Shown: piece after piece, positions 4,028-23,068 of the stretch
Layout: each line of letters starts with the position of its first letter
How positions within the stretch are numbered: position 1 is the first letter of the stretch
IMG/VR virus record: IMGVR_UViG_3300010396_000099
Location: 1-23,998 of that record
Length of the DNA stretch: 23,998 nucleotides
Source: a virus
Direction: 5' to 3' (one strand)
Made by a program: the position numbers and the translations under genes
The notes under the pieces: generated by a model
Databases searched by the model: none
Told to the model about the DNA's origin: nothing
What the model saw: the letters and a program-made list of their open reading frames with translations, nothing else

Positions 4028-4330
4028 ATGACAGAAATCAGCGCCCAAGAATGGGCATCCTTACGCGAAGACATCGGCGAATTGAAGGATGCCATGAAGG
4101 AAATGGCGAAAGCCATGGAGCGACTTGCTCGTCTTGAGGAGCGCGACATCGAGCGCAGGTCTTCGATTGACCGTGCATTTTCTGAAATCACCAAATTGGA
4201 GGCGCGAGTTGTCGCTCTTGAGCAGCAGGCGCCGGCCAGCAACCGAACAAACGCATGGATTGATAAATTCCTTTGGGCCGTCCTCGGCGTATGCGGGATG
4301 TTCATCGCTAAAAAGTTAGGAATGGTTTGA
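4028..4330 (+). CDS. Coiled-coil protein with C-terminal membrane helix (lysis region)
   Basis: This 100-residue protein has a long heptad-like helix over about residues 8-66 (many Glu, Lys, Arg and Leu) and one hydrophobic helix near residues 80-96 (LWAVLGVCGMFIAKKLG). The layout resembles XhlA-type haemolysin/holin-accessory proteins and other tail-anchored proteins of phage lysis cassettes. No clear ribosome site precedes ATG 4028; the leader is CTTTCATCTAATAACC, directly after the terminator T-run. The 3' end overlaps the next gene. It could help anchor or time the lysis proteins; it does not have the N-terminal anchor of an Rz spanin. Role inferred. Confidence 0.75.
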   Translation: MTEISAQEWASLREDIGELKDAMKEMAKAMERLARLEERDIERRSSIDRAFSEITKLEARVVALEQQAPASNRTNAWIDKFLWAVLGVCGMFIAKKLGMV

Positions 4331-4602
4331 ACATCCCAACGGATTTGATTGAATCCTGCTTTCTGGTGGGCGCGCTATATGTTTCGTTTCGCAGTGCCTG
4401 GAGAATTTACGCAAGTCAATCGTTGGATGGCGTCTATTGGCCTGCTTGGGCATTTTATGCAGTTTATGAGATTTGGAAACTTATCTACTACTCGCATTTT
4501 GACCAAGCATTTAGTTTCTTCGTAAATATCGCCATGGTGTCAACGAATTTTTTAGCTTTTATAGGCATCGCAAAAGTGTATCGCAATAAATCAAGGAAAT
4601 AA
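4327..4602 (+). CDS. Three-helix membrane protein, candidate holin or lysis factor
   Basis: This 91-residue protein begins at TTG 4327, which overlaps the TGA of the preceding gene; AGGA at 4318-4321 gives a suitable ribosome site and no better ATG exists. Hydrophobic segments lie near residues 8-22, 36-54 and 62-84, with aromatic-rich text (WPAWAFYAVYEIWKLIYY) between charged edges and a basic C-terminus (YRNKSRK). The endolysin gene follows after two bases. I recall similar small membrane proteins beside phage endolysins, often without a proven role. It is a reasonable holin or antiholin candidate, but this is unproven. Confidence 0.7.
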   Translation: MNIPTDLIESCFLVGALYVSFRSAWRIYASQSLDGVYWPAWAFYAVYEIWKLIYYSHFDQAFSFFVNIAMVSTNFLAFIGIAKVYRNKSRK

Positions 4603-4604
4603 AA

Positions 4605-5054
4605 ATGACCCCCACAGACTTCATCGCAGCAATGCTTCCCGGCGCGCAGGCGTGCCAGCAAGCCACAGGCGTTCCGGTTGGCGTAACGATTGCTCAAGCC
4701 GCATGCGAATCGGCATGGGGCTCCAAGGCGCCAGGAAATAACCTGTTCGGCATCAAGGCTGATTCGTCATGGGCTGGCCCAACGGTCAGCTTCTTGACGC
4801 ACGAAGACCTGAATGGCCGATGGGTCGAAATCACCGCAGCATTCCGCGCCTATCCTGACTTCGCGGCGTCACTGGTCGATCACGGCGAGTTCTTGAAAAA
4901 TAACCCGCGCTATGCCGATTGCTTTGCGCACACCGATAGTCTCAGCTTCGCGCATGCCGTGGCAATGGCCGGCTATGCGACCGCGCCTAACTACGCCGAC
5001 ACACTGTGCGCAATCATCAGCGCCCACGACCTTGAGCAATATGACCAAGATTGA
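4605..5054 (+). CDS. Endolysin: N-acetylglucosaminidase (GH73/FlgJ-type)
   Basis: This 149-residue protein is a single glucosaminidase domain that would cut the glycan strands of peptidoglycan. The signature region is intact: AQAACESAWGSKAPGNNLFGIK, written here in parts as AQAACESAWGS (residues 30-40, catalytic Glu35) and NNLFGIK (45-51). A conserved FRAYPDFAASLVDH segment follows at about 80-93 and GYATAPNYADTL near the end. There is no signal peptide or wall-binding domain, so export probably depends on a holin. ATG 4605 has AAGGAA inside the end of the preceding gene. Its stop overlaps the next gene by 14 bases, as in a lysis operon. Confidence 0.92.
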   Translation: MTPTDFIAAMLPGAQACQQATGVPVGVTIAQAACESAWGSKAPGNNLFGIKADSSWAGPTVSFLTHEDLNGRWVEITAAFRAYPDFAASLVDHGEFLKNNPRYADCFAHTDSLSFAHAVAMAGYATAPNYADTLCAIISAHDLEQYDQD

Positions 5055-5241
5055 ACAACTCCTAGCCTACATCGCCGATCGCCTCTCCGAGCGCAGCACA
5101 TGGGAAGGCATCATGTTCTTGGCGACCGTCTGCGGCTACCACACACAAAATCTTGACTGGGGCCAGTGTGCGGTCCTTGGCGCTACCGTGTCGGGCGCGA
5201 TCAAGATTATTTTCCCCGACGCGAAACCGCCGAAGGAATGA
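5041..5241 (+). CDS. Small membrane protein, holin-like
   Basis: This 66-residue protein starts at ATG 5041, inside the end of the endolysin gene. A longer frame upstream is only the endolysin read out of frame. The N-terminus is polar (TKIEQLLAYIADRLSERSTW); two weakly hydrophobic helices follow (about 21-36 and 40-57) and the end is charged (FPDAKPPKE). Small proteins with a RLSERSTWEGI-like amphipathic start and two helices are common in betaproteobacterial phage lysis cassettes and are usually called holins. It competes with the 91-residue protein for that role. Confidence 0.7.
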   Translation: MTKIEQLLAYIADRLSERSTWEGIMFLATVCGYHTQNLDWGQCAVLGATVSGAIKIIFPDAKPPKE

Positions 5242-5708: not shown

Positions 5709-6167
5709 ATGAAATACACCATTGCAGCCGCGCTAGTCGCGGCTTTTTCTTTGGGCGCTTGCAGCACTGCGCCCACCACGCCAACTCAACCAGTCGCCGC
5801 ACTGACCCCGCAGCAAATCGGCACGCAAATCTGCCCCGCGCTTGAGGTGACTATACCGGCCATTCAGGCAATTGTTGGCCTGCCCCAAGGCGCATATGAT
5901 GACCTTGAAAAAGCGCAAGTTGTGGTCTCCGGCAAAGTCGCAACCGCCACACAGCCCGCAGTCCCGGGCCTTTGTACCGTCATCAATACGCTGACCGCCT
6001 CAGATGCGCAACAGCTTGAGCAAATCGCCTTCCAGACCGTTTTGCCAATTGTCGAAGCCAGTAATCCGAAGCTGGCCGCAGAATTGGAAGTCGCGCAAAT
6101 CGTTGTCGGCTTTGCCAATGCGGTGCAAGCTGGCGCACAAGCTGGCGCTGTCACGCCTGCAAAGTGA
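5709..6167 (+). CDS. Phage lipoprotein
   Basis: This 152-residue protein starts at ATG 5709 with AGGAG about eight bases upstream (5697-5701). It has a lipoprotein signal, KYTIAAALVAAFSLGAC, with a lipobox LGAC (Cys18), then a Thr/Pro-rich linker and an Ala/Gln-rich helical domain. The residue after Cys is Ser, so outer-membrane sorting is expected under the +2 rule. The C-terminal segment (EVAQIVVGFANAVQAG) is only moderately hydrophobic; a single-chain spanin (lipobox plus C-terminal membrane helix, as in phage T1) is conceivable but weakly supported. The lipase gene follows with a GTGA stop/start overlap. Confidence 0.75.
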   Translation: MKYTIAAALVAAFSLGACSTAPTTPTQPVAALTPQQIGTQICPALEVTIPAIQAIVGLPQGAYDDLEKAQVVVSGKVATATQPAVPGLCTVINTLTASDAQQLEQIAFQTVLPIVEASNPKLAAELEVAQIVVGFANAVQAGAQAGAVTPAK

Positions 6168-6814
6168 TTTCCCCGCTTTATGCTGCATGGCTGGCCTGCA
6201 TAGCCATTTACAGCGAGCTTGGCGCGTTTGACGAGGTGTTGACGGTTGAACCCGACACAATCGGGCTGAAATCGATCGCTGACACCTTGACCATAACGGC
6301 GCAGGGAACGCGGGATGTTGAAATGTGGGAAAGCAATTTCAGAATCAGGGAATTTGCAGACCCGGTATTTGGGCAAGTGCATTCCGGTTTTCGAGATGCT
6401 GCGCTGGCGATATACCCGCAGATCAAGCAAAAAGCGGCTCAGGCGATCGCAGAAGGCAAGCGGGTATCACTCAAGGGTCACAGTCGCGGCGCTGCTCTGG
6501 CGCAGTATCTGGCGGCCCTATCCGCTCAAGACGGCATCCCCGTTACCTTGTTCCTGTTCGAATCCCCAAATGTTGGCTATCAACAATTTGCCGACATCTG
6601 CGCGACCTATGCAAAAGCCGGACTGATCGATTGCCAAATATCCACCGTCAACGGACTGGACCCCGTTCCATATGTGCCGATTGAGCCCTACGTCAAGACG
6701 TATCCGACGATTGATCTTGACGAAGCGCCTGGCGGCTTGGAGGACGCTGATATTTTCGATTGGCACATTGGGCGAACGATCTACGCCGGCATGCAGAAAA
6801 AATTCCCGAATTAA
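6164..6814 (+). CDS. Class 3 lipase-like serine hydrolase
   Basis: This 216-residue protein starts at GTG 6164, overlapping the lipoprotein stop (GTGA). The alpha/beta-hydrolase class 3 lipase pattern is clear. TAQGTRDVEMWESNF (45-59) occupies the oxyanion/lid position, VHSGFRDA is at 72-79 and the nucleophile elbow KGHSRGAALA places Ser107. GLDPVPYVP gives Asp166 and FDWHIGR gives His201, so the triad looks complete. The first 20 residues are hydrophobic and could act as a weak signal or anchor. It would hydrolyse acyl esters, plausibly membrane phospholipid. Directly downstream of an outer-membrane lipoprotein in a lysis cassette without an evident Rz/Rz1, it may attack the outer membrane; that role is inference. 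Confidence 0.88.
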   Translation: MISPLYAAWLACIAIYSELGAFDEVLTVEPDTIGLKSIADTLTITAQGTRDVEMWESNFRIREFADPVFGQVHSGFRDAALAIYPQIKQKAAQAIAEGKRVSLKGHSRGAALAQYLAALSAQDGIPVTLFLFESPNVGYQQFADICATYAKAGLIDCQISTVNGLDPVPYVPIEPYVKTYPTIDLDEAPGGLEDADIFDWHIGRTIYAGMQKKFPN

Positions 6815-6828
6815 TCAACGGAGGTCGA

Positions 6829-7254
6829 ATGACCACAATCGTTGCAAACCGCACTTGTATGGCGGCGGATGCCCGTGTTTCCGGGATGCCTATGTTTGTT
6901 ACTGACAAGATATTTCGCGTCAATGGCTCGCTTATAGGCGGCGCTGGACGTATGGAGCATATTCTCCGTTTCGTGGAGTGGCGAAGAAACCCAGATAGCA
7001 AGCCAACTTTCAGCGATTCGGCCGAGTTTGAAATTCTTGAACTTACGAGTGATGGCAAGATTATTTGGTGGGGAGTCGAAATGGTTGCCATCCCCATTAA
7101 AGGGGACTGCTATGCAATCGGCTCCGGTGCAAATTTCGCCCTTGGCGCAATGTCCATGGGCGCGTCGCCCCAACAGGCAATCCAGATCGCATCAAAGTGG
7201 GATTCGGCTACTGGCAATGAGGTTCGCGTGCTTCAGTTGAAAGCGGGCAAATGA
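6829..7254 (+). CDS. HslV/proteasome-beta-like Ntn-hydrolase
   Basis: This 141-residue protein starts at ATG 6829 with the ribosome site ACGGAGG. The sequence MTTIVANRTCMAADAR matches the start of HslV, where Met removal exposes the nucleophilic Thr. An Asp at mature position 13 and Lys26 (TDKIFRV) match the active-site Asp and Lys of the family. GGAGRMEHI matches the internal Gly motif, and YAIGSGANFALGAM followed by ASPQQAIQIASKWDSATG matches the C-terminal HslV motif. It is shorter than bacterial HslV (about 175). No HslU-type ATPase is present here. It may be a self-compartmentalised peptidase or a degenerate homologue. The neighbouring phosphoesterase gene overlaps its stop. Confidence 0.85.
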   Translation: MTTIVANRTCMAADARVSGMPMFVTDKIFRVNGSLIGGAGRMEHILRFVEWRRNPDSKPTFSDSAEFEILELTSDGKIIWWGVEMVAIPIKGDCYAIGSGANFALGAMSMGASPQQAIQIASKWDSATGNEVRVLQLKAGK

Positions 7255-8153
7255 CTGCCATCGACCCCAAACTAATCGAATTCGCCACAGACAGGCAGCG
7301 CGAATATTTGGCGGCTATTGAGAAGCATGGGAGTGGTAGGCAGGCCGCGATTGCCCTTGGCGTCAATGAAAACCGAGTCAATACCGCCATGCGAAGCTTG
7401 CGGCGCAGAGTGGAGCGCGAAACAAAAAAGCTTCCGCCAAAGCCTAGGGAGGTCACCGCCGGCCAGGTTGTGATGCACGTCCCAGACCTGCACTGCCCAT
7501 TCATGCACGAAGATGCGCCGGCATTTATTCGGGCGTGCAAGGAGAAATACCAGCCCACCATTATCGTTCTGGCGGGCGACGAGCTGGATCAACACGCCAT
7601 CAGCGCGCATGATGCCGACCCCAACGGCTACAGCGCCGGCCACGAACTGACCGCGGGCCTGAAGCAGCTAGAGCAGATTTACGCCATTTTCAAAGAGGCA
7701 CTTGTCTGCGAGTCGAACCACGGGCAAAGGCCATTCAAACGGGCTTACAAGGCCGGATTGCCCAGCCAATACATGAAAACCTACGCGGAGTTCATGGACG
7801 CGCCGCAAGGCTGGGTGTGGGATGATGAATTCGAGATTGATGGCGTTGTCTATACCCATGGCGAAGCGGCCACAGGAGCCAACGGCGCACTTCAACTGGC
7901 AATCAGGATGGGCAAGTCCCAGGCTGTCGGGCACTGGCACGGCAACGCGGGGGCAAGCTATTTTTACAACAATTCCAAGCTGCTTTTCGGGCTTTATTCC
8001 GGATGCCTGATCGACCAAAAAGCCTATGCATTCCGGTACAACAAGCACTTCAAACTGAAGCCAGTTCTTGGGCTGTCAATCATTGACCGAGGCGTGCCAT
8101 TGTTCGTTCCGATGCATACTGACGCTGAGGGGCGATGGAATGGGGTTGTATAA
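7251..8153 (+). CDS. HTH plus calcineurin-like metallophosphoesterase
   Basis: This 300-residue protein starts at ATG 7251, overlapping the preceding stop (ATGA). Residues about 13-54 form a helix-turn-helix-like region (DRQREYLAAIEKHGSGRQAA...NENRVNTAMRSLRRR). Metallophosphoesterase motifs follow in order: VPDLHCPF (Asp79, His81), AGDELDQHAIS (Gly109-Asp110), ESNHGQR (Asn156-His157), YTHGEA (His203) and GHWHGN (His228, His230). These are the ligands of a two-metal centre, so phosphodiesterase or phosphatase activity is expected. The substrate is unknown; the DNA-binding-like N-terminus points to nucleic acid. It is the last rightward late gene before the attachment region. Confidence 0.88.
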   Translation: MTAIDPKLIEFATDRQREYLAAIEKHGSGRQAAIALGVNENRVNTAMRSLRRRVERETKKLPPKPREVTAGQVVMHVPDLHCPFMHEDAPAFIRACKEKYQPTIIVLAGDELDQHAISAHDADPNGYSAGHELTAGLKQLEQIYAIFKEALVCESNHGQRPFKRAYKAGLPSQYMKTYAEFMDAPQGWVWDDEFEIDGVVYTHGEAATGANGALQLAIRMGKSQAVGHWHGNAGASYFYNNSKLLFGLYSGCLIDQKAYAFRYNKHFKLKPVLGLSIIDRGVPLFVPMHTDAEGRWNGVV

Positions 8154-8261
8154 GCCCATCGTCCAAAATACAGTTGTAAGTGTTTGATTTTATTAGGGGC
8201 ATACAGTGGTTTTATGTGGGCCTATTTTTACCAAAAAAATCAGCCTAACTCATTGATTTAA

Positions 8262-8327
8262 ATGAAGAAAACTCGAATATTGTTTGTCTGCATGGGAAAT
8301 ATGAGCAGTGCCAAAGCGAGCCAATAG
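8262..8327 (+). pseudogene. 5' fragment of a low-molecular-weight protein tyrosine phosphatase gene in attP
   Basis: The frame encodes MKKTRILFVCMGNMSSAKASQ and then stops. The part up to MGN matches the N-terminus of LMW tyrosine phosphatases (LFVCMGNICRSP), and the match ends just before the catalytic Arg. A natural reading is that phage DNA up to about 8302 copies the 5' end of the host gene. Integration there would then restore an intact host reading frame with a phage-supplied start. There is no ribosome site before ATG 8262, so it is not expected to be expressed as a phage protein. Confidence 0.6.
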
Positions 8328-8347
8328 CAGCAAGGGTCGTCGCAAAA

Positions 8348-8369
8348 TCGTACAAAATTCGTACAAAAT
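8348..8369. repeat. Tandem 11-base direct repeats, likely Int arm-type sites
   Basis: TCGTACAAAAT occurs twice back to back (8348-8358 and 8359-8369), immediately beyond the end of int. Short direct repeats beside the core are typical of arm-type binding sites for the N-terminal domain of lambda-family integrases. Assignment is by position. Confidence 0.6.
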
Positions 8370-8373
8370 TATT

Positions 8374-9468
8374 TTACCGCGCAATCACCTCTAACCACTC
8401 CGAGCCGCGAGTATCGTGATACACGGCGGTCATCTTTGGCGACTTGTGACCAAGCAGGCGCTGCGTAAATTCGCTGCCGTATTCCTCAGCATAAAGACGC
8501 TCTGACAGCGATCGGATTTCGTGAAAGGTCGGCGGTGTTCTTCCTTCTTGCCATTCAATCTTGGCGGCATCACGCGCTCGAGCAAAAGCCTTGCTTATCG
8601 TATCCACAAATACCTGTGATCCGGCTTTGATGCGACGCCCAGGTGCGGAATGGTGAATCAGGTACTGGCTTACCACATCGTCGCGGCATTGCCTTACCGC
8701 CTCCTCCAAAGACAAGTCCAAGACGCTAAGGCGCAGCGACAGCGGTATGCGCAGCTTTGTGCCCGTCTTTCTCTGCTGACAGTACCAAAAACCATCTGAA
8801 ATCGCCTTAAATTCGGCCTGTGAAACGTCCTCTCGACGTTGCGCTGTCAGTAATGCCAGATTCATGGCGTTGACCTCCCAGCCCGTCGCCTGCGCCCGTA
8901 TAGCCAAGAATTGATCCAGCGAGAGGCGATCCCGCATAACCGTTGCCGTGGGGTTGCGCGTGACGGCAACACGATTCTTTTCCACAAGTCCGCTTACCTC
9001 GGCCTCGCGGAACATATCCAACATGGTCGAGCGAATCACAATTGCCATGCGCGCTCCACGGGTTGACGCCGACTCTTCGATAAACATCGCAATTTCCCGG
9101 GCCGTGATTTCGTTAATGCGCTTGCCGGCAAAGCTTGCAGCTAGAATGGCGCGCACCGCAGATTTCAGCGACGCAATCGTGGTCTTGGCTGCGCCGCGCT
9201 TCTCGATATACGTTTCCTGATACTCCATCGCCCATTTTCGCAGCGTTTTGCCATCCTTGCCCAATACCCAATCAGCCAACTTCAGGCCGGCATCACTCTC
9301 AAGCGCGGCGTTTGCGTTTCGGGCTTCCCTGAAGGCTAAGGTCTTATCTCGGCCAAGGCCCTTCGTCCTTTTGTCTTTCGGATTGCGATACCAGAAATAT
9401 CCATCGGGTTTCATGTACAGGTTAGGCGGGAATCCCTTTCGGCTTGCTTCTCTGCGGCGTGCGGCCAT
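8374..9468 (-). CDS. int: Lambda-family tyrosine integrase
   Basis: This 364-residue protein (lambda Int is 356) starts at ATG 9468, sharing its A with the TGA of xis; 17 in-frame codons upstream lie within xis and are discarded. The N-terminal arm-binding domain is lambda-like (ARRREASRKGFPPNLYMKPDGYFWYRNP). The catalytic set is complete: Arg211 (LLTAQRRED), Lys234 (QQRKTGTK), His316 and Arg319 (FHEIRSLS), His341 (LLGHKS) and nucleophile Tyr350 (AVYHDTRG). It would recombine attP with the host site, with Xis directing excision. It is the last gene of the leftward operon and ends beside attP. Confidence 0.97.
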   Translation of the reverse strand: MAARRREASRKGFPPNLYMKPDGYFWYRNPKDKRTKGLGRDKTLAFREARNANAALESDAGLKLADWVLGKDGKTLRKWAMEYQETYIEKRGAAKTTIASLKSAVRAILAASFAGKRINEITAREIAMFIEESASTRGARMAIVIRSTMLDMFREAEVSGLVEKNRVAVTRNPTATVMRDRLSLDQFLAIRAQATGWEVNAMNLALLTAQRREDVSQAEFKAISDGFWYCQQRKTGTKLRIPLSLRLSVLDLSLEEAVRQCRDDVVSQYLIHHSAPGRRIKAGSQVFVDTISKAFARARDAAKIEWQEGRTPPTFHEIRSLSERLYAEEYGSEFTQRLLGHKSPKMTAVYHDTRGSEWLEVIAR

Positions 9469-9653
9469 CAATCCCCCAAATATTCGGCTTCTGGTGGGAC
9501 GAACCATCCCCGGCCACACTTTTGTGGCGGCGGTTGAATGCGCCCTTCATGAGCCCAGCGATGCAGCGTGTTGACATGTGGCGCATCATCACCGAACACC
9601 ATCTTTGCCCACTTCGCAATAGGAACCAGGCGCGGTTGTGTTGATTCGTTCAT
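9468..9653 (-). CDS. xis: Excisionase (lambda Xis-like)
   Basis: This 61-residue protein starts at ATG 9653 with GGAGGGA five bases upstream; the longer frame lies in the neighbouring gene. The winged-helix excisionase pattern is visible: VPIAKWAKM, then NTLHRWAHEGRIQPPPQKCGRGWFV, matching the lambda Xis segment with the RW..EGRI.PPP signature. It bends attP and favours excision by Int. The start overlaps the stop of the upstream gene (ATGA) and the stop overlaps int, so int and xis are translationally linked. Confidence 0.93.
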   Translation of the reverse strand: MNESTQPRLVPIAKWAKMVFGDDAPHVNTLHRWAHEGRIQPPPQKCGRGWFVPPEAEYLGD

Positions 9654-22108: not shown

Positions 22109-22372
22109 CTAGTAAATTTGCATTGGACAGGCTTGATACGAGTTGACTGTCATGACGGCGTTATTTGAATAGTTGCAATATTTCAGACCATTGACTGTCT
22201 GCTCGCCGGTATAAAAGCCGCTCGCAAATCTTTGCGGTTGTTGTTGCTGTTGCTGGGGACTGCCATTCATAGCGTCTCCGACCCCTTGCGCTGCGCCAGC
22301 GGCCATAAAGCCGCCCACCCCACTACAGCCATGGAGGAGAAGCGCTAATACCGTGATTGCAGGCTTTTTCAT
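22109..22372 (-). CDS. Small lipoprotein with poly-Gln stretch
   Basis: This 87-residue protein starts at ATG 22372, four bases after GGAGG. Signal KKPAITVLALLLHGC with lipobox LHGC, a Gly/Ala-rich segment, eight residues of nearly pure Gln, then a compact C-terminal part (SGFYTGEQTVNGLKYCNYS, SYQACPMQIY) with two Cys that may form a disulfide. It lies between the repressor and PL and is probably expressed in the lysogen. Surface exclusion is a plausible role by position only. Confidence 0.78.
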   Translation of the reverse strand: MKKPAITVLALLLHGCSGVGGFMAAGAAQGVGDAMNGSPQQQQQQPQRFASGFYTGEQTVNGLKYCNYSNNAVMTVNSYQACPMQIY

Positions 22373-22382
22373 ATGACCTCCT

Positions 22383-22757
22383 CTAATCATGCGCGCATCT
22401 TACGTACAAATAGGATGTATCGGCATAGGCTTGGGCGGTTCCGGATACATCATTCAGATTCACTGCATAGTGGTAAGTTGGCTGCGCCACGGTCGATGAC
22501 CAGGCTTCGCCGCCACCCTTTCCGTCTGCCGTATCATTGCCAGTTTGGGCGTAGGCCGTCAGCTCTGGCTGTGTCGGCAGGCGCCATCCAGTTTCGCCAC
22601 TGAAGGCATTGGTTGTGCAATATGTATTCGCATCAGACCAATTTAGTTGCGCCGGCGTCCTTGCAATGCTTACCGAGTGAGTGCCGCTAGTTCCGCCGCT
22701 ACTACCGCCACCACATGCCGATAAAGCGACAGACAAAAGCAAAATAAATGTTTTCAT
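22383..22757 (-). CDS. Lipoprotein with DUF1566-type domain
   Basis: This 124-residue protein starts at ATG 22757 after GGAGG. Lipoprotein signal KTFILLLSVALSAC (lipobox LSAC, Cys15), Gly/Ser linker, then a domain with NWSDANTYCTTN, GWRLPTQPEL, EAWSSTV and YLYVRCAHD, the Lcl/DUF1566 pattern of surface or periplasmic proteins. Ten bases separate it from the second lipoprotein. Position between CI and PL matches lambda rex genes, so a lysogen-expressed envelope function is likely but unproven. Confidence 0.83.
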   Translation of the reverse strand: MKTFILLLSVALSACGGGSSGGTSGTHSVSIARTPAQLNWSDANTYCTTNAFSGETGWRLPTQPELTAYAQTGNDTADGKGGGEAWSSTVAQPTYHYAVNLNDVSGTAQAYADTSYLYVRCAHD

Positions 22758-23068
22758 AAACCTCCTCTTAGTTGCGCGTAAATAACAAAATTCCCCCAAT
22801 TATTGAGCCACTGTAACGATATGACACACAATCATCTTTTAACCATCGATATGATGGTCGATTGCTTACTATTATTATGATACCTCCCATATTTATGGGA
22901 TACACAGCGTGGTATATATGTGTGACCTTAAGTAGCGCCGTTTATACAACTACTACCCGAGACAAAAAATATGTGGCAAAATACTGTACGTAAACGCATG
23001 TCTTTCGTACCCCAAGGATCGTTTGATCGGCACCACAAAGACAGGATTTCATTCAATGTGGAGGGGTC
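22758..23068. other. AT-rich intergenic region with two palindromes
   Basis: No gene is seen over about 310 bases. It holds a perfect palindrome with a two-base centre, TCCCATATTTATGGGA (22885-22900), and ACCATC-5-GATGGT (22842-22858). These could be sites for a regulator or part of divergent promoters for the lipoprotein operon (leftward) and the 54-residue frame (rightward). I could not place -35 and -10 boxes with confidence. Confidence 0.5.

Follow-up and report, generated by a model that had tools for sequence, protein, structure and literature searches.

How does a virus open the outer membrane of its host when its lysis cassette ends in a lipase gene and no Rz/Rz1 spanin genes are seen? 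The question is raised by IMG/VR record IMGVR_UViG_3300010396_000099, a sequence of 23,998 bases, possibly a fragment, which was analysed over its whole length and is called the window below. The initial annotation had described a class 3 lipase encoded beside a lipoprotein, and had proposed that the enzyme, secreted or membrane-bound, could act in place of spanins. On the late strand, a 912-aa ORF that is taken as a structural protein stands at the beginning, followed by the genes of Table 1 in the order given there. The position of the lipoprotein-lipase pair downstream of endolysin and holin-like genes was upheld: the endolysin is recognised by its glucosaminidase domain, and the ORF at 5041-5241 is called holin-like because of its size and place, with no Pfam match at E 1 and a single PHROG match, at 0.02, to a family of unknown function. 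The DUF4864 gene sits between this ORF and the lipoprotein gene; in many relatives this place is taken by a second small lipoprotein bearing a CC motif. Past the lipase, positions 6829-8153 of the same strand encode an HslV-like protease (phrog_1040, 4.7e-32) and a metallophosphoesterase (phrog_221, 1.3e-52), and an ORF on the opposite strand (8374-9519) reads like a tyrosine integrase. Two more lipoprotein-like ORFs lie on the minus strand at 22109-22799, in the apparent early arm.

Table 1. Genes of the lysis region in the window
Feature	Position	Strand	Evidence
Protein with C-terminal membrane segment and coiled coil	4028..4330	+	phrog_937 hemolysin 9.4e-5; transmembrane peak at residue 82
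Small membrane protein, 91 aa, TTG start, putatively holin-like	4327..4602	+	
Endolysin, glucosaminidase domain, 149 aa	4605..5054	+	Pfam 1.3e-29
Small holin-like protein, 66 aa	5041..5241	+	position and size
Exported-looking DUF4864 protein, 151 aa	5243..5698	+	Pfam 1.5e-6
Lipoprotein, 152 aa, lipobox LGAC at residues 15-18	5709..6167	+	
Class 3 lipase, 216 aa, GTG start	6164..6814	+	Pfam Lipase_3, triad Ser107-Asp166-His201

The claim of a complete class 3 lipase was borne out. The protein matches Lipase_3 (PF01764) at E 1.8e-13, with 51 bits against a curated cut-off of 22, and the esterase/lipase family phrog_21992 at 1.6e-16. Its nucleophile lies in a GxSxG-type motif, GHSRG, and the triad is invariant, together with G105, H106 and G109, in 34/34 aligned sequences; the alignment consists of the window virus, contigs L002, L127 and L129, and 30 of the 34 loci collected with the lipase of Burkholderia phage BgManors32, the other four being duplicates or unreadable. 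The predicted fold (pLDDT 81.7, pTM 0.85; residues 163-173 and 188-192 below 50) superimposes on Thermomyces lanuginosus lipase (6xok) with a Z of 21.6 and an rmsd of 2.9 over 198 residues. A chance ORF was rejected on the Pfam match and the invariant columns. In searches with the window lipase, no match was found at 1e-2 by tblastn against 50,697 phage records and no relative among genome contigs, NCBIfam gave no match at 0.01 for either it or the lipoprotein, and the BgManors32 lipase had no match among plasmids.

The same alignment spoke against a secreted or membrane-bound enzyme. By a simple hydropathy rule, used here rather than a signal-peptide predictor, a strongly hydrophobic N-terminal stretch was found in 0/34 lipases, and residues 4-17, which form the first helix of the model, are part of the domain. 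Since no signal peptide can be recognised, the lipase is unlikely to be secreted or anchored, and an exported form was rejected as a candidate. It would probably stay in the cytoplasm until the holin acts, as many endolysins do, and without an export signal it would therefore need the holin to reach the periplasm. The coupling of the two genes was confirmed in the letters at 6164-6167, where the lipase GTG start overlaps the TGA stop of the lipoprotein gene by 4 bases.

In order to look for Rz/Rz1, four spanin profiles were run on 52 records, namely 50 lipase-bearing records taken as paired, together with lambda and BcepC6B. PF03245 had no match in the window and matched 1/52 records, lambda, missing even the Rz of BcepC6B. 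No match in the window was found with phrog_312 (4/52 records, strong in BcepC6B only, 1.4e-42) or phrog_214 (4/52 records, the best in lambda, 1.2e-7); weak matches in records with the pair were seen in G036 and G012 for phrog_312 and in G031, G032 and G008 for phrog_214. The fourth profile, phrog_456, matched short leader stretches in 17/52 records, with its best match in the window. A topology scan was also run, in which an i-spanin was defined by an N-terminal membrane segment, a coiled coil and a lipoprotein gene that overlaps or adjoins its own. It found 0 Rz/Rz1 pairs on both strands of the window, and 0 pairs on both strands of the complete genomes of BgManors32 (59,762 bases) and Shewanella phage vB_Sb_QDWS (47,902 bases), which were scanned as overlapping stretches with the circular joints excluded. 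In the controls, the lambda lysis region and BcepC6B, exactly the annotated pair was recovered. The remark that no Rz with a nested Rz1 is present thus holds for the window by PF03245, phrog_312, phrog_214 and topology; the record being possibly a fragment, this result speaks for the sequenced stretch alone.

We then asked how often the pair recurs. A scan with the BgManors32 lipase gave 34 loci, and a lipoprotein profile was run near each lipase. A match lay within 450 bases of the lipase in 31/34 loci, and the end of the lipoprotein gene lay no more than 12 bases from the start of the lipase in 29/34. The profiles had been seeded with 39 class 3 lipases (all 34 of these loci included), 14 lipoproteins and 6 of 10 patatins, and since they were built from loci that were later searched, matches in seed loci arise by construction; with the 7 seed loci removed, lipoprotein and lipase adjoin in 22/27. 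In L115 and L116 the lipoprotein lies 352 bases away with another ORF between, in L106 it was recognised by motif only, and beside the lipases of L107 and L110 no lipoprotein was found. In a wider lipase scan, the lipoprotein family was present in 13 of 80 kept loci and absent from 67, so that most of the phage class 3 lipases in that scan do not belong to such a module.

Individual relatives repeat the layout. Contig L127 repeats the window cassette, with an endolysin (glucosaminidase, 4.5e-33) 49% identical to that of the window; its lipoprotein apparently belongs to a different family. In IMG/VR contig L002 a lipase with 42% identity follows a weakly similar lipoprotein (25%, E 6e-4, from a single comparison). 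BgManors32 carries an endolysin (GH19, 1.2e-6), an HNH gene, a holin-like gene, the lipoprotein gp43 and the lipase gp42, the last two sharing the GTGA overlap of the window pair; gp42 is annotated as glycerol dehydrogenase or esterase/lipase, with no lysis role noted. In vB_Sb_QDWS the pair adjoins the integrase, on whose side a retron-type reverse transcriptase is annotated (L007, 12807-13838). The records OK094664 (vB_Sb_QDWS) and OP650936 (Hujiaoplasma phage zrk29-1) both have 47,902 bases and equal lipase matches, and may represent a single phage under a doubtful host label. Among genome contigs, a search with alignment A5 gave 44 loci, mostly from Clostridia, some from Treponema and others. 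Weak lipase matches in cyanophages and in jumbo Stenotrophomonas and Xanthomonas phages did not directly adjoin holin and endolysin genes, an annotated endolysin or chitinase being about 3 to 4 kb away in RAS14 and XacN1, and Pseudomonas phage PAE2, matched via the 912-aa structural protein, is arranged differently ahead of its integrase. By tblastn against the 50,697 phage records, no match was found for the L105 holin at 1e-2 or for the L127 lipoprotein at 1e-3.

The place of the pair is that of Rz/Rz1: in BcepC6B, Rz/Rz1 come after the holins and endolysin and before the integrase. To compare occupants of this slot, 98 endolysin-centred loci were assembled, 18 of them holding relatives of the L105 phage lysozyme (PF00959, 3.1e-36) and 80 being the best of the 94 in which the BgManors32 GH19 endolysin has relatives, several contigs being shared with the lipase-centred set. 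A class 3 lipase was present in 17 loci (one of them distant, L129), a patatin in 10, and an Rz/Rz1-like pair in 27, of which 26 were found by a detector of our own making and L140, missed by it, was added by eye; all these pairs lie within 4 kb of the endolysin, the range of the search. Checked against PHROGs, 6 of 8 i-/o-spanin candidates match Rz-like spanin families at 0.01 or better; the Rz1 of L141 does so at no better than 0.0038, L239 hits a family of unknown function, and L215 has none. Lipase or patatin occurred together with Rz/Rz1 in 0/98 loci. Under independence, the chance of zero overlap is 2.9e-5 for the unclustered loci and 4.0e-4 for 63 clusters at 95% endolysin identity; at 80% identity, 37 clusters (8 with an enzyme, 10 with Rz, no overlap) give a P of 0.058, and this rise means that much of the split tracks lineages. 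Neither enzyme nor Rz/Rz1 was found in 44/98 loci, some from contig ends, and lack of a detectable Rz/Rz1 near the endolysin is thus not special to carriers of the module.

The enzyme in the slot is exchanged among relatives. A patatin phospholipase of about 270 aa follows the same lipoprotein family in 7 of the 98 loci by eye and in 10 by profile, that is, in 10/10 of the patatin loci. The three patatins tested match PF01734 at 7.8e-30, 1.7e-32 and 3.1e-28. In L195 the patatin gene overlaps the lipoprotein stop by 4 bases, and this patatin had no match at 1e-10 by tblastn against the 50,697 phage records. The L129 slot holds the distant class 3 lipase (9.6e-6), and in L193 a DUF1353 protein (7590-8428, 1.2e-26) follows the lipoprotein family instead of a lipase; the L193 context hints at an envelope role for DUF1353. 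Class 3 lipases and patatins have unrelated folds and share the hydrolysis of lipids. Because two unrelated lipid hydrolases occupy one slot after the same lipoprotein family, membrane-lipid hydrolysis would seem to be the point of the arrangement, and this swap is the strongest argument for such a purpose.

The pair might instead be cargo, a moron at the end of the late operon that encodes, for example, a phospholipase for antibacterial action or superinfection exclusion, together with a protective lipoprotein, or a lipase that alters the host. Type VI phospholipase effectors do have periplasmic immunity proteins, and cargo is commonly found beside the integrase, where the late operon ends. 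Two further genes with no evident lysis role lie between the lipase and the integrase-like ORF, and the 67 wider-scan loci in which the lipase stands without the lipoprotein family also fit this explanation. Cargo, however, should add to Rz/Rz1 and not replace it, yet none of the 27 enzyme-bearing loci has both, and the two complete pair-bearing genomes gave no Rz/Rz1 pair. In 29/34 loci the enzyme gene and the lipoprotein gene overlap or directly adjoin, the enzyme has no export signal by hydropathy, and its match to the type VI phospholipase effector Tle1 (PF09994; E 0.21, 11.3 bits) falls below the cut-off of 27. On balance we regard cargo as unlikely.

The lipoprotein leads to a second alternative. 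In 39 aligned lipoproteins, Cys18 (the lipobox cysteine), Cys42 and Cys89 are the sole invariant columns, and Asp at +2 was found in 0/39. By the Lol sorting rule, a lipoprotein without Asp at +2 is sorted to the outer membrane, and the family fits this destination. Its domain is predicted, in a weak model (pLDDT 67.9, pTM 0.50), to be mostly helical rather than a short proline-rich tail; a Foldseek search with this model had no hits at E 0.001 and, among solved chains, none below 0.1, and tblastn of the lipoprotein against the 50,697 phage records gave no match at 1. A unimolecular spanin of the T1 gp11 type was rejected, the protein having no C-terminal membrane segment and hydropathy peaks over 1.3 at residues 3 and 41 of 152 only.

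In an unconventional two-component spanin, the lipoprotein would be the outer half, the coiled-coil protein of 4028-4330 the inner half, and the lipase an accessory. Similar-looking upstream proteins occur in the window, L127, L109 and BgManors32 (gp47), and the Rz1-type profile phrog_456 matches the lipoprotein leader at 3.8e-5 with 17.9 bits, the score of its best lambda match. According to the available text of Kongari et al. (PMC6139136), such topologies fall outside the criteria used there, and a lipoprotein lacking a linked i-spanin is present in 31 genomes without spanins. Yet the phrog_456 match is confined to the leader (profile positions 4-44 of 102), and the protein resembles an o-spanin in part: it is a lipoprotein, but a longer one, with a conserved Cys pair and a predicted helical domain. 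In L140-L143 a membrane-segment and coiled-coil protein (with the opposite order) is likewise present and is no stand-in for a spanin there, because these loci also have a full Rz/Rz1. Such a spanin would also leave unexplained the enzyme gene that comes after the lipoprotein gene in nearly every case, and its exchange for that of another lipid hydrolase, and we consider this reading quite improbable. Ordinary two-component spanins outside the sequenced stretch, with the lipase aiding a different step, for instance the breakdown of the inner membrane or of debris, would fit a fragmentary record and profiles that can miss spanins, as PF03245 does the Rz of BcepC6B, but are very improbable given the two complete genomes without a pair outside their circular joints, the recovered controls, and the 27 comparison pairs found within the 4 kb searched around the endolysin.

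From the gene arrangement and its comparison across relatives, we therefore prefer, as the probable reading, that lipoprotein and lipase form an enzymatic module that opens the outer membrane and stands in for spanins. The lipoprotein would be exported and delivered to the outer membrane's inner face, and the lipase would build up in the cytoplasm alongside the endolysin. Opening of the inner membrane by the holin would let both enzymes into the periplasm, where the endolysin would strip the cell wall and the lipase, with the lipoprotein as its dock or activator, would hydrolyse outer-membrane phospholipids until the membrane fails. The original suggestion of a lipase in place of spanins is thus strengthened by the recurrence of the pair, its Rz/Rz1 slot and the phospholipase swap, and loses its secreted or membrane-bound enzyme. 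We would give about even odds to the idea that Gram-negative phages possess a further, enzymatic way through the outer membrane, in which a lipoprotein already placed there takes up and activates a holin-released phospholipase of exchangeable type (class 3 lipase, patatin, perhaps DUF1353) in place of membrane-fusing spanins.

In the available text of Kongari et al. (PMC6139136), 91 of 677 phages are without spanins and other routes are discussed, and the word 'lipase' occurs 0 times. No paper describing a lipoprotein-lipase lysis module was found in the literature searched, which covered few subscription journals, and the available portions of PMC5411513, PMC8951688, PMC5968864, PMC10847048, PMC13236601, PMC10057898 and PMC9902359 do not describe it. 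If true, a module in the spanin slot would offer a testable answer for the spanin-less phages of that survey, might account for part of the genomes in which a lipoprotein occurs but an i-spanin does not, and would enlarge the phage toolbox by enzymes active on the outer membrane. The arrangement is kept in relatives, some with an unrelated lipid-cutting enzyme, and maybe marks a different exit route for new viruses.

Like Rz/Rz1 of lambda and BcepC6B, the module stands at the end of the cassette after the endolysin and consists of two coupled or overlapping genes, one for an exported lipoprotein; unlike Rz/Rz1, no inner-membrane coiled-coil partner was found adjoining the lipoprotein, and the second gene encodes a lipid hydrolase. 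The enzyme shares fold and sequence profile with class 3 lipases such as Thermomyces lanuginosus lipase and plant phospholipase A1, but is shorter, has no evident signal peptide and lies within a phage lysis cassette. In BgManors32 the order is the same, lipoprotein and then GTG-start lipase with a 4-base overlap after the endolysin, although gp42 is 33% identical and an HNH gene lies inside the cassette. According to the available text of PMC5707550, LysB of phage Ms6 is a lipolytic enzyme for the third lysis step of mycobacteria, a role that its authors equate with that of spanins. The likeness is a lipolytic enzyme, here by family, in a cassette with endolysin and a putative holin. As far as the available text goes, LysB cuts the mycolyl-arabinogalactan link in mycobacteria, whereas here a class 3 lipase is combined with a lipoprotein; the annotated pair-bearing phages infect Burkholderia and Shewanella. 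For phage WO, a patatin-based lytic cassette without endolysin or spanins has been proposed (PMC9203015, in the part available), following an earlier suggestion of its phospholipase as a lysis enzyme (PMC3173496, likewise in part). Both cases share a phospholipase as the candidate lysis enzyme, patatin filling the slot in 10 of our loci, but an endolysin and a lipoprotein are present here, and the available part of the WO account (PMC9203015) names no lipoprotein partner. Ms6 LysB, where the role has been shown, and the patatin cassette of phage WO, where it has been proposed, are the nearest precedents that we found.
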